From Okeania sp. SIO3B5 (lineage in GTDB: Bacteria; Cyanobacteriota; Cyanobacteriia; Cyanobacteriales; Microcoleaceae): a DNA stretch of 64,000 nucleotides. Both the position numbers and the translations under genes were made by a program. Positions 224 to 13,626 of this stretch are shown one piece after another. The DNA lies in the NCBI RefSeq assembly GCF_010692555.1, contig NZ_JAAHHG010000003.1:1-64000 (forward strand), written 5' to 3'. The notes under the pieces are model-generated. The model was not told the origin of the DNA. It made no database searches and was given only the letters and a program-made list of their open reading frames with translations. Position 1 is the stretch's first letter. Each line of letters begins with the position of its first letter.

Positions 224-2482
224 ATGTGTTGGATTAGATATGTCAAAGTAGCTCTAGTTAATACCATTGGAGCATTAGTAGCAATTATTTGGGTGCCTGT
301 TCCTCAAGCAGTGGCACAACCTTCCCTTTTAGAACAAGCAAATTCAGTAGTTTCGCCCTTAGAAACGCTCCAGTCAGTAAACAACAACTTAAAAACTACA
401 AGAAAAGTAAATTCACTATCAGAACTTTACCAGCTTAGGGATGAAATAAAGGCTGAACTTAATAAAGTCTCTCAAAGTCCAAGTCTCCAAGAAGTAGAAG
501 AACCCTGGCAATACAAATTCTACCTACAACAATATGAAAAAACCCTGAAAAACTTCCGTAACGTAGAAGCTAATATTGTTAAAGAAGAAAAAGCGCTCGA
601 AAGTTGGAAGCAAGCGATCGCCAAAGCAAGTAAGGCAGTAGAAAAAGGAAAAATAACTCAGGCAAATTACCAAACTTGGCAAGAAGCAGAAAATCTTTGG
701 TTAGAGGCAATTTCTAACTTGCGCGAAATTCCCCAAAATTCCTTCATGACAGATAAAGCGATCGAAAAAATGATCGAATATCAGGGTTATCTAGCAGTTG
801 CCTCCTATGAAAAAGTCATAGCAGCAAGAAGATGGGTAGAAAATACAGAAGACGACACAAACAATAATACAAGCAATTATTCACCCATTGCATATAGTTT
901 ATCTCCTGGTTTCACCATGTATGGCGATACCAACAGAGATGGAGAACTAGATAAAGCTGACATATCGAGTAGAGAAAAATGGTCTTTATCAGAAGGTGCA
1001 TTGATGTTGTTTAATAGCGATGATGATAATGGCGATCGAAGGCCAGACTGGCGCGATCGAGAAGTTAATGGGGAAAGTGATGAAGCAGATTTGGCACTGG
1101 TGAATATTCAAGTAGCAGAAAATTATCAAGATGCTCAAATCTATCTTTCAACAGACACAGATGCTAGTGACTATATTAATGTATTCCAAAAAACAGAATA
1201 CGGATGGCAACCAGTAGATATTTCTGGTACTGAAGCATTAATATCTAGAGAGAAAGTAGTATTAGGGGTAGAAGCTAAACAGTTTGCAGATCGCAATTGG
1301 AAAGGAGTCGTTAAATTAACAGCGATCGCTGAAAAAAATGGCAGACAAATTGCTTCTGATAGTATTCAAATAGGTGTAGTTCCCTGGTTAATGTCTCCCA
1401 ATACTGCTCCAGTCAAAGAGCTTCATGTCAGCGAACGTGGTTTTGGCAATCAAGAATTTGTCGCCAAAATCAAACAGATCGTCGAAAGAACAGGTGCTAA
1501 AGCTCAAATTAATTCTGGCGGTACTACCTGGATGCAAGATACTAAAGAAATAGGTTATGTGCAATTTCCTTCTCAAGGTAAAACCCACAATATGAATGTG
1601 GTACTCAAAGCTAACCGCCCTGGGGAAAATGATCAATATGCTAGAAGTCTGCTCAAAGAAGATTTTGGCTGGTTTGAAGTAGGTAAACCCAGACAACTTG
1701 ATCCTTTAAATAGATGGGCAGATGCTTATGGAAACCTAGAAGTCACACCACCTCTACCAGGATATGAGCTGGGAAGAATTTATTATGGTAAGGCAGGTGA
1801 AGTAGGAATGAATCCTGAAATCATTGATTTTATTAAAGCACAAAAAATTCAAGGCCCGCCAGTAGATATTGATACTTCTTGGTTAATGATTCGTCATGTA
1901 GATGAAATTATTAGTTTTATTCCTAGTAAATTTGGCAAACCTTTAATGTTAATTGTTAGTCCAGAGGCAGGGGTAAAACTATTACAAGAATTGAGTCAAC
2001 AAGGATATGGACAAGCGGCAATAAATCGTGGTTTAAGTACTCAAACAACGGTACGAGCAGCGCTAAAAAATCAGAAGTTAATTCAGCATAATCTCTATTT
2101 ACAGCGGGAAAAATTAGATCCATTAATTGAAAAGTTGAAGCGGGAATTTAATTTAAGTGATGACCAGATTATTCAAGTACCAGCTATGTTTGGATATAGT
2201 GGTTATTCTTGGTGGCCAAATATGGTGAACTCGGTAGTAGTTAATGGAGAATTGTTAGTTTCAAATCCTGTAGGAGCATTAATTAATGGTAGAGATTATA
2301 CTCAGGAAAAATTCCGCAGGTTAGTAGCTTATGCTGGTTTAAATATTAATTTTATGGACGATAAATATTATCAGAATTTAAGGGGAAGTATCCATGATGC
2401 GACAAATACAACTCGTTTAGGAAAAAATAATCCTTTCTGGAAATCTTTGTCTGAGGATATTATTTCAGGGAGTAGGGAGTAG
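224..2482 (+). CDS. Secreted protein-arginine deiminase (PAD)-like protein lacking the catalytic Cys
   Basis: The C-terminal half matches the PAD catalytic fold. WMQD (Asp439) corresponds to the substrate Asp, HVDE (His558, Asp560) to the His/Asp pair, and FGWFEVG, DAYGNLEV and GRIYYG are typical PAD core segments. Where PADs have the nucleophile motif HCGTN, this protein reads HDATN, with Asp725 in the Cys position. The only cysteine is in the signal peptide, so the mature protein has none. Deimination (Arg to citrulline) is therefore not expected. The middle part has an Asp-rich, EF-hand-like segment (GDTNRDGELD), consistent with the calcium-binding middle domain of PADs; the N-terminal third is helical. 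Start: GAGGA lies 8 nt before the ATG at 224; an in-frame ATG at 209 would add five residues. From 224 the protein begins with a good signal peptide ending near AVAQ. Family assignment is fairly sure; activity is not. Confidence 0.8.
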   Translation: MCWIRYVKVALVNTIGALVAIIWVPVPQAVAQPSLLEQANSVVSPLETLQSVNNNLKTTRKVNSLSELYQLRDEIKAELNKVSQSPSLQEVEEPWQYKFYLQQYEKTLKNFRNVEANIVKEEKALESWKQAIAKASKAVEKGKITQANYQTWQEAENLWLEAISNLREIPQNSFMTDKAIEKMIEYQGYLAVASYEKVIAARRWVENTEDDTNNNTSNYSPIAYSLSPGFTMYGDTNRDGELDKADISSREKWSLSEGALMLFNSDDDNGDRRPDWRDREVNGESDEADLALVNIQVAENYQDAQIYLSTDTDASDYINVFQKTEYGWQPVDISGTEALISREKVVLGVEAKQFADRNWKGVVKLTAIAEKNGRQIASDSIQIGVVPWLMSPNTAPVKELHVSERGFGNQEFVAKIKQIVERTGAKAQINSGGTTWMQDTKEIGYVQFPSQGKTHNMNVVLKANRPGENDQYARSLLKEDFGWFEVGKPRQLDPLNRWADAYGNLEVTPPLPGYELGRIYYGKAGEVGMNPEIIDFIKAQKIQGPPVDIDTSWLMIRHVDEIISFIPSKFGKPLMLIVSPEAGVKLLQELSQQGYGQAAINRGLSTQTTVRAALKNQKLIQHNLYLQREKLDPLIEKLKREFNLSDDQIIQVPAMFGYSGYSWWPNMVNSVVVNGELLVSNPVGALINGRDYTQEKFRRLVAYAGLNINFMDDKYYQNLRGSIHDATNTTRLGKNNPFWKSLSEDIISGSRE

Positions 2483-10998: not shown

Positions 10999-13626
10999 TT
11001 AAAGTCTACAAATCTCCATGCGCGAGAGAAGGTAAAACCAACCTATACCTAAGCTACCTACCTTTCCAGTAACTATCTTACAAGGGAACTTCCCCTTTAA
11101 AAGCGTGCTAAAATCATTTGTTAGGTCACTGTAATCCAACCATTCTTCTCCTTTTTTCCACCCTACTTTTTTACCGAACCTTTCCCGTACTTTTAACTCT
11201 GTTGTTCCGCTCAAACTTTGATAAATTTTCTTCTGCACCGAAAAGCCAAACTGGCCATAACTATATTTAACCCAAAGTTGATCTATTATGCGGAGGTCTG
11301 CACAAGGAAAATTTTCTATATCTTCCACGTCTAGCCGTTTTTCCTTCTGTCTCCCTGCAACTTCCAACATCACATGATAAGTTTCTATGTCTGCCTCTTT
11401 CCACTTTTCAACAAATAGGAAATCACGAAGTTTGAAATATTTAGGAGATATAATTTGTTGCGATGGTAAAACTTGTAATATTTTTTGAACAAATCTATTT
11501 TCAAAGATATATTTGTTGCGAGTTTCTTGTCGATTATTAGATTTAACTTTAGAGCAAAGTAACTGTTGAATTTTCGGGTAACTATTAATCCAATAACTTG
11601 CATTTGATTTTTCGTTAGGCAGCATTATAGATTTATTTGATTCAGGAGAATTATCAACAGCAAATTTTTCTAAATCAACAAGTAGTTGACTATTCTTCTT
11701 AAGTTCAACAAGAAAACGAGGATATTGCAATGTTAGTGCAGTAAACTTAGCCATCTGTTCTATGGTTATCATTCTTCTTTCAGAAAAAGCTACTCCTACA
11801 GCATAATAAGCAATATAAGTTTTTAGTCTCAAAACATTAATGTATTGTTTTAAACGACGGGGATTATTATCAAAAAAAGGGGCAACTATCTCTATAACAT
11901 TGGCAAGGCTTTCCAAATCTAAATCTTTGTCAATAATCGGGAAAATAGGTAAATCTGGTAAATTTGGATGTAAAATTTCCGTTGCTAGTTTTTCCCTTCT
12001 TTCTAATTTTTCTGGTGGATATAATATATTAATATATTTCCCTATTATGACGATTATACCTATTATTTTGATAATTATTAAGAAAATAACTCTGTCAAAC
12101 TTTCTTTCTGTCATTTTTTTTATTTCTAATAATAAAATTTTTGCTTCTATTAATAAAGAAAGTTTTAATGAGAGACGTTTTGCGTCTTTAAACCTTTCGG
12201 GAATATCAAATATTTTGGCAATAAAACTATAAGGAATCCAAAAAAAGTATTTTTCTTCATGAGTTTCTATTTTTCTCTGACTTTCAGATACTTTTTCCAG
12301 AAAATTATTCAACGTATTTTGAGAAGGTTCAGGAACAGAGAATGATAACTGCACAAACTTTTCCAGAAAACTAAAACCATAATCTACTTGCTTCATAGAA
12401 CTATCATTTCGATTTTCCCACTCTTGATTTTCTTTAGCAATTGAAGCTAGAAAAGGAATCACATCTTTTTGTTTAAAAGTTATCGAAGCTGCCACCTTTT
12501 CCCGATCCATTCCCAAAATAAAAATCAAATTTGGGTCATCAGAAATCATCATATTTATACCTTGCAATAAATCCGCAGCTTTACCCAGCTCACAACGATC
12601 AAGGTCATCAATAAAAACATAAATTTTCTCATCTCTACCTACATAAGCACCAACAATTTTAGAGAAATCTTCGTGAAATTCTTCAATAAAAGCAGCTTCC
12701 TTTTCATAATCAGGAGACTCAAGATATAGAGTTAAATCCATTTTCTCGTCGCCAATTAAGTCTTTGATTATTCCGAAAAGTTTTCCTATTCCGGCAGCAG
12801 AACTGCTAATTCCGACCAGTTGTAATAAAATATTTAAAGAAAGATTATTTGTATCCTCATTATTCGTTGATTCTGAGTCTCGATCATTATTTTCCTTTGT
12901 CTCATTGTTAGTTGTTTCAGCCTCTTCCTTTTGACTTTTCTCTTCCTCCTTTGAATCTGATTTCAGAGTGTCAGCCAAATTTTCAGACAACTGATAAACT
13001 CCCTCAAAGCCAAATTTCCAGTATACAATTGGAATAGCTACAGTAATACTAGAAATCAACGAAACCATCACCAAAGTCTGAATAGCTTTAAACGGTTTAT
13101 CTTTAAAATTTAAACGATAAATAAATAGTTGAAACCGACTGTATAAGTTATAGAAAAAATCAGGAATATTGCGATTTTTAGATAACTCTTCCAAAAAAGA
13201 AAGAGCAAAAGTCGCCCAAAGTGACTCAGATTTTTCATGTCGCCAAGCATTAAACCAAACTGTTTGAGTTTTTTGCTTGAATCCTAATCTAATAAATTTA
13301 CCAATATCTGATAGATTGCTGAAAATAATCTGGTCTTCTTTAATTTTCTGCCAAACCTCTGCTAAATCTTTTTTATCTAATTCTTCAGACTTCTTAAGAA
13401 TCTCCTTTTCCAACTGTTTCATAAAAGAAGATTTACCACTACCCCATTCACCTTCGATAGAAATAGTCAGTGGAGGTTTTGTATTTTCATTAGTTAAAAA
13501 TTCAGCCATAGCTATTACATAAGGAGTAAAACCAAGTTCATCTTTTGTTGTTGCTTGGTCTCCGATAGTAATAATTTTGTTTGATTTATCTGTAGATTCT
13601 GGCATAATTGATAAGTCAAAATTCAA
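10999..13626 (-). CDS. KAP family P-loop NTPase with membrane segments
   Basis: 875 residues. The Walker A motif is GEWGSGKSS at 59-67, the KAP-typical WFNAWRHE is at 124-131 and the Walker B is KIYVFIDDLDR at about 334-344. Between A and B sit a membrane segment (about 183-203) and a low-complexity acidic, Asn-rich linker (221-262), the usual KAP arrangement. A second hydrophobic stretch, RVIFLIIIKIIGIIVIIG, lies near residue 515. The C-terminal 350 residues are helical and unassigned. KAP ATPases are membrane-associated; some, such as F-plasmid PifA, act in phage exclusion, so a defence role is possible but not shown. The start could also be Met8. A-T rich codon use and the accessory setting (orphan xisI, PIN pair) suggest acquired DNA. 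Confidence 0.88.
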   Translation of the reverse strand: MNFDLSIMPESTDKSNKIITIGDQATTKDELGFTPYVIAMAEFLTNENTKPPLTISIEGEWGSGKSSFMKQLEKEILKKSEELDKKDLAEVWQKIKEDQIIFSNLSDIGKFIRLGFKQKTQTVWFNAWRHEKSESLWATFALSFLEELSKNRNIPDFFYNLYSRFQLFIYRLNFKDKPFKAIQTLVMVSLISSITVAIPIVYWKFGFEGVYQLSENLADTLKSDSKEEEKSQKEEAETTNNETKENNDRDSESTNNEDTNNLSLNILLQLVGISSSAAGIGKLFGIIKDLIGDEKMDLTLYLESPDYEKEAAFIEEFHEDFSKIVGAYVGRDEKIYVFIDDLDRCELGKAADLLQGINMMISDDPNLIFILGMDREKVAASITFKQKDVIPFLASIAKENQEWENRNDSSMKQVDYGFSFLEKFVQLSFSVPEPSQNTLNNFLEKVSESQRKIETHEEKYFFWIPYSFIAKIFDIPERFKDAKRLSLKLSLLIEAKILLLEIKKMTERKFDRVIFLIIIKIIGIIVIIGKYINILYPPEKLERREKLATEILHPNLPDLPIFPIIDKDLDLESLANVIEIVAPFFDNNPRRLKQYINVLRLKTYIAYYAVGVAFSERRMITIEQMAKFTALTLQYPRFLVELKKNSQLLVDLEKFAVDNSPESNKSIMLPNEKSNASYWINSYPKIQQLLCSKVKSNNRQETRNKYIFENRFVQKILQVLPSQQIISPKYFKLRDFLFVEKWKEADIETYHVMLEVAGRQKEKRLDVEDIENFPCADLRIIDQLWVKYSYGQFGFSVQKKIYQSLSGTTELKVRERFGKKVGWKKGEEWLDYSDLTNDFSTLLKGKFPCKIVTGKVGSLGIGWFYLLSRMEICRL

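Follow-up and report, generated by a model that had tools for sequence, protein, structure and literature searches.

The PAD-like gene and the layout of its product

The window, that is, the whole stretch of 64,000 nucleotides of Okeania sp. SIO3B5 analysed here, lies on a contig that starts at a gene related to those of the protein-arginine deiminases (PADs), and the gene upstream is out of view. The open reading frame (209–2482) has no internal stops when translated. Residues are numbered from the start at 209, and the residue called Asp725 in the initial annotation is Asp730 in this numbering; the start at 224 (Met6) assumed in that annotation is the likelier one, going by the N-termini of relatives, which open there with MRWVRYVAIA..., MSWMRYVAVA... 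or MGWMRYIAVA.... The features of the gene are as follows:

209–2482, + strand: PAD-like coding sequence, 757 residues, likelier start at 224
224–316, + strand: putative signal peptide or N-terminal membrane anchor, residues 6–36 (...PVPQAVA/Q), from a reading of the sequence, alike in relatives
413–850, + strand: N-terminal helical module, residues ~69–214, from helices predicted by AlphaFold2; not PAD_N, no Pfam match
923–1321, + strand: PAD_M middle domain, residues 239–371 (Pfam PF08527, 2.4e-7)
926–952, + strand: DTNRDGELD loop, equivalent of the PAD Ca6 site by alignment, residues 240–248
1013–1090, + strand: Asp-rich Ca3-5 segment with N269, D271, D273, D280, D291 and D294, by alignment to PAD4
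1349–2440, + strand: PAD_C catalytic-fold domain, residues 381–744 (Pfam PF03068, 9.9e-66, and structure match)
1529–1540, + strand: WMQD, residues 441–444, with W441, Q443 (Ca1) and D444 (PAD4 D350), by alignment
1730–1741, + strand: GNLE, with E511 (PAD4 E411, Ca1), by alignment
1895–1906, + strand: HVDE, residues 563–566, with H563 and D565 (PAD4 H471 and D473), by alignment
2393–2407, + strand: HDATN, the Asp-bearing nucleophile motif, residues 729–733, by alignment
2396–2398, + strand: GAT codon, Asp730 in place of the catalytic Cys, from the sequence and 13/13 genomes of its clade

The homology with PADs is clear at several levels. The Pfam scores are 222.8 bits for PAD_C (curated cut-off 25) and 30.9 bits for PAD_M (cut-off 24.8), and phmmer searches against solved structures return PAD4 at 1.5e-53 over residues 234–744 and PADI6 at 7e-22 to 1e-18; NCBIfam matches neither the window protein nor L097. 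The AlphaFold2 model, built from a 49-row alignment, has a mean pLDDT of 82.6, which is high in PAD_M and PAD_C and low in residues 1–63 and 214–230, and in VIA-align this predicted model matches human PAD4 with Z 45.2 (2.0 Å, 496 residues aligned) and the chains of PADI6 and of the cytoplasmic lattice with Z of about 40. The fold had been taken to extend over 750 residues, which has to be narrowed: PAD_M and PAD_C cover only about 233–751, and residues ~69–214 form an unrelated helical module. By descent, the window protein is a member of the PAD family and, judging by its sequence, it is probably not an active protein-arginine deiminase (EC 3.5.3.15).

No Pfam match, to PAD_N or any other family, was found in residues 1–233, where the model places instead the helical module, with four helices (70–88, 99–147, 154–172 and 181–214). 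The same module recurs in four other proteins of the window genome, where it follows what reads as a signal-like or transmembrane segment: three have no Pfam match and the fourth (L046, 1399–2700 of contig C101) is a class A beta-lactamase-like protein (Pfam Beta-lactamase2, 1.8e-26). In two PAD-like proteins of the related genus g2 (L017 and L020), a long charged, repetitive and helix-like insert lies between the N-terminal module and PAD_M. The module and the signal-like segment fit an arrangement in which the PAD head would be held, as if by a stalk, beyond the cytoplasmic membrane.

With regard to calcium, the ligands of site Ca1 in PAD4, which we take to be Q349, E353 and E411, have equivalents in the sequence of the window protein (Q443, E447 and E511), while those of Ca2, presumably D369/S370, do not: K467/A468 stand there in the clade that shares Asp730 (the Asp clade), and mostly N or D followed by G in the nearest Cys-bearing relatives. 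The Ca3-5 residues listed above were placed with PAD4 ligand numbers that we likewise assume. The initial annotation had correctly pointed to a calcium-binding-like segment, but according to the alignment it is an ordinary one, namely the Ca3-5/Ca6 ligands that PAD_M has inherited. In the aligned g2 rows the Ca3-5 segment is eroded and the DTNRDG loop is intact. The PAD calcium sites, Ca6 included, are described in the literature (PMC8826395).

The surroundings of the gene name no pathway, and no neighbour gene is constant across the family to which the window protein belongs (f1). An operon partner was considered and rejected, given that the neighbours vary by genus: in the Asp clade, the gene upstream usually encodes a response regulator of the OmpR type (Response_reg + Trans_reg_C) and a reading frame of 106 aa that resembles ABM lies downstream (Pfam ABM below cut-off), genus g4 has an RTX-repeat protein upstream, and g2 has small paired reading frames and a PutA-like proline dehydrogenase nearby. 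Elsewhere in the window, positions 1–109, the very start of the contig, are a low-complexity C-rich repeat; a 61-bp unit repeated 3.2 times (2468–2661, 96% matches) takes in the end of the PAD-like gene, from its last codons to its stop; and 10999–13626 (− strand) encodes a P-loop NTPase of the KAP family with a GUN4-like domain fused at its C-terminus.

The nucleophile position in the window protein and its family

The equivalents of the PAD4 catalytic tetrad in the window protein are D444, H563, D565 and, in the place of C645, D730. As first annotated, codon 2396–2398 reads GAT and the HCGTN-type motif has become HDATN, and the WMQD, HVDE and GNLEV/GRI core that was said to be kept could be located in full (GNLEV at residues 508–512, GRI at 522–524). 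A sequencing or assembly error at this codon is so improbable that it can be set aside, for GAT is found in 5/5 genomes of the window's genus and in 13/13 separately assembled genomes of its clade. The sole Cys of the 757 residues, Cys7, lies within the signal peptide or anchor; the statement that the mature protein has no cysteine is thus true, but it describes no separate oddity, because the catalytic Cys is normally the lone Cys of the PAD part (exactly one Cys from the PAD_M motif onward in 19/22 rows of f2, f50 and f44, the nearest Cys-bearing families). No second, Cys-bearing PAD exists in the window genome, which has a single PAD match genome-wide, as does each matching f1 genome except for the split gene of genome G398. 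Going by its named members, f1 corresponds to the Microcoleaceae: among close relatives, those with names are Okeania, Trichodesmium, Hydrocoleum and one Microcoleaceae MAG, which NCBI places in the Microcoleaceae. The window protein is 35–54% identical to its nearest Cys-bearing relatives (f50, f44 and f2) and 24–28% identical to the cyanobacterial three-domain rows.

The nucleophile column was aligned in 107 rows, 57 from f1 and 50 from outside it. The catalytic Cys is present in 0/56 scorable f1 proteins versus 47/48 scorable proteins outside f1, where the remaining rows are one Ser (L129 of f50) and two that are unscorable. Its replacements in f1 are 39 Ser (27 in g2, nine in g4 and three in g3), 13 Asp (six in g5, five in g1 and one each in g146 and g147), 2 Thr, 1 Met and 1 Ala, and the codons differ as well: the Asp clade uses GAT, g2 and g3 use TCN, and g4 uses AGY. 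One of the g2 Ser rows (L118, genome G403) has an aberrant C-terminus and shows Leu at this column in a second alignment.

In a tree of 60 rows, from which the nucleophile column was excluded, f1 is monophyletic (support 100/99), only two changes between Cys and non-Cys are needed, one of them at the base of f1, and Asp was gained once. The Asp clade that the initial annotation proposed to look for therefore exists, and it has a single origin. Since f1 is one clade and the tree has only those two changes, the shortest account is that Cys was lost a single time, at the base of f1, and that the position then drifted from residue to residue; repeated losses within f1 are conceivable. Outside the family, L129 (genome G456) represents an independent change of the catalytic Cys to Ser (TCC), and it carries E447K and E511Q, as in g2.

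Retention, selection and the fate of the arginine pocket

The PAD-like gene is present in 57/61 f1 genomes. In the order sample, PAD matches occur in 104/388 genomes, with 47/327 outside f1, and in the phylum sample they occur in 25/386. Two genomes of family f10, G501 (L080 and L133) and G597 (L082 and L132), each combine a PAD of the three-domain type with a second one that is long, divergent and Cys-bearing, the frames of this second type measuring 996–1090 aa; the listed contamination of the two genomes is 1% and 5%, and the observation contrasts with the published statement that the two types do not occur together in any species.

Pairwise comparison of PAD_C gives the Asp clade a median dN/dS of 0.110 (78 pairs); for the other f1 genera g2, g4 and g3 the medians are 0.182 (351 pairs), 0.086 (45) and 0.170 (3). 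The corresponding values in Cys-bearing families are 0.137 in f2 (21 pairs), 0.137 in f6 (12 pairs, with three left out) and 0.093 in f50 (six pairs, with 22 left out, and with Ser in 1/8 of its rows). Purifying selection thus acts on the f1 gene with the same strength as on its Cys-bearing relatives. These ratios and the retention of the gene led us to reject the idea of a pseudogene. In genus g149 the gene of G398 (L119) is split in frame, and it is whole in its sister G397, where Ala occupies the nucleophile position; the split possibly marks the start of decay in this genus.

Conservation was evaluated at 48 PAD_C positions that do not vary among 40 Cys-bearing rows. Of these, the Asp clade keeps 46/48 and departs only at C730 (13/13 rows) and T732 (3/13), while the other f1 genera depart at 15/48, including D444, E447, E511, H563, H729 and C730. 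In these genera, catalytic and Ca1 positions are lost in 6/7 cases versus 9/41 of the rest (Fisher p 0.002, an optimistic value since the rows are related), whereas in the Asp clade alone 1/5 catalytic positions is lost (Fisher p 0.20), with no over-representation. All 13 rows of the Asp clade keep W441, Q443, D444, R470, E511, H563, D565, H729 and N733, and 12/13 keep E447. R562, which precedes H563, was considered as an f1-specific residue and discarded, for Arg is also found in 12/21 Cys-bearing rows.

The divergence sampled in the Asp clade is modest (dS tree length 2.45). The probability that a neutral GAT codon remains free of amino-acid change on the tree of this clade is about 0.0014, and D730 is therefore constrained. 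At the same time, 249/368 PAD_C positions are identical within the clade, and pocket conservation is therefore unremarkable against its own background. In the sister genera, the tetrad and the Ca1 site were dismantled and the protein was kept, and therefore deimination is an implausible candidate for the function shared by the family, which need not involve the arginine pocket either. The non-catalytic character that was first suggested is thus supported by the sequences, and more widely than had been seen, given that Cys is absent family-wide and its replacements differ by genus; the f1 proteins are probably inactive as catalysts. Arginine binding, suggested in the same annotation, is possible in the Asp clade (D444, R470, H563, D565 and W441 in 13/13), but not as the function of the family, whose sister genera lack D444 and/or H563.

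Candidate roles and comparison with known PADs

We consider it probable, with some reserve, that the protein is an exported pseudo-deiminase kept as a binding or scaffold protein, and in this a bacterial equivalent of the PADI6 of mammals. In such a protein, the PAD head would fold around its inherited calcium sites and may bind Ca2+ there, the helical module would present it outside the cytoplasmic membrane if export occurs as the signal-like segment suggests, and the head might bind a partner or self-assemble, in the sheath or the cell envelope, without turning over arginine. This proposal draws on the homology, the predicted fold, a loss of Cys that is most simply explained as one event, the family-wide retention of the gene and the purifying selection. 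What counts against a scaffold is the number of invariant positions kept by the Asp clade, which is greater than a pure scaffold would need, although the divergence sampled in this clade is modest. These same positions favour a reader of arginine, restricted to this clade, in which Asp730 would act as a third carboxylate and hold the guanidinium group without turnover, in an exported and Ca2+-dependent manner. The residues that it would use (W441, D444, R470, H563, D565, H729, N733 and D730) are unchanged in 13/13 rows, and the constancy of D730 is hardly a neutral outcome; four unchanged pocket residues are, however, unremarkable where two thirds of PAD_C are identical anyway, and in the sister genera the gene persists without the pocket, which would make this function lineage-specific. 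We regard it as rather unlikely.

A different chemistry, also raised in the initial annotation, found no positive evidence. According to this idea, Asp730 would be a nucleophile or base, or D444, H563, D565 and D730 would form a metal site, and the guanidino group would be hydrolysed. The rest of the active site is indeed intact and Asp is fixed in 13/13 rows, and ureohydrolases offer a parallel for metal-ion hydrolysis of guanidino groups; yet we know of no precedent for such Asp chemistry in the PAD fold, and elsewhere in f1 the Cys has also become Ser, Thr, Met or Ala, which is the pattern of a dispensable residue. This makes the idea very improbable, and slightly more so its full form, in which a carboxylate or a carboxylate-held metal replaces the thiol nucleophile in Okeania, Trichodesmium, Hydrocoleum and their kin, with a guanidino chemistry new to PADs. 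It is just as hard to believe that the family is a decaying relic, a useless enzyme whose gene is slowly disappearing: the stepwise loss of catalytic residues in the sister genera, the split gene of G398 and the aberrant C-terminus in G403 point in that direction, but nearly all f1 genomes retain the gene, in most cases as a single long reading frame, and its PAD_C dN/dS lies between 0.09 and 0.18.

In the papers searched we found no activity assay of the Cys-less f1 branch, and the literature searches, which included few subscription papers, returned no description of it. The annotation "protein-arginine deiminase" in these cyanobacteria is no evidence of citrullination. The family and its relatives form a graded natural series, from Cys-bearing proteins, through the Asp form with its pocket intact, to Ser forms that also lack His, Asp and Ca1 ligands, and this series suits the question of what a PAD fold does outside catalysis, which PADI6 leaves open.

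Like the active three-domain PADs (PAD4 and the Cyanothece cyanoPADI), the window protein has PAD_M and PAD_C, WMQD, HxDE, GNLEV and calcium sites; unlike them, it lacks the catalytic Cys and PAD_N and has a helical module of its own, probably exported. The Cys-bearing PADs of f50, f44 and f2 share the exported-type N-terminus, and some of them (L013, L098 and L121) also the helical module, but they keep HCATN and the catalytic residues, with the exception of the Ser row of f50. The two-domain PADs of actinobacteria and fungi are described as having PAD_C, a divergent PAD_M and no PAD_N (PMC8826395). They resemble the window protein in this domain layout, but two Streptomyces/Embleya proteins, which make up our non-cyanobacterial sample (two plasmid-borne actinobacterial genes of four plasmid matches), keep HCATN.

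The closest parallel is PADI6 of human and mouse, which has the PAD fold and, according to two sources, lacks the catalytic Cys and retains Asp/His/Asp (PMC11402830, PMC10542454); the first of them also reports it to be inactive in vitro (PMC11402830). Its role is non-catalytic: according to a preprint, five PADI6 dimers make up the peripheral scaffold of the egg cytoplasmic lattice unit (PMC13060343). The two proteins differ at the nucleophile position, which in PADI6 is Ala flanked by two Cys and in the window protein belongs to HDATN within a Cys-free PAD part, and in their calcium sites, since PADI6 does not bind Ca2+ and the window protein keeps the Ca1 and Ca3-6 ligands in its sequence. 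They also differ in the bacterial origin of the latter, its probable export, the replacements by Asp, Ser or Thr, the absence of PAD_N and the spread through a whole family. Taken together, f1 represents a family-wide, selected loss of the PAD nucleophile in a probably exported bacterial protein, closest in kind to PADI6 and separate from it in origin.
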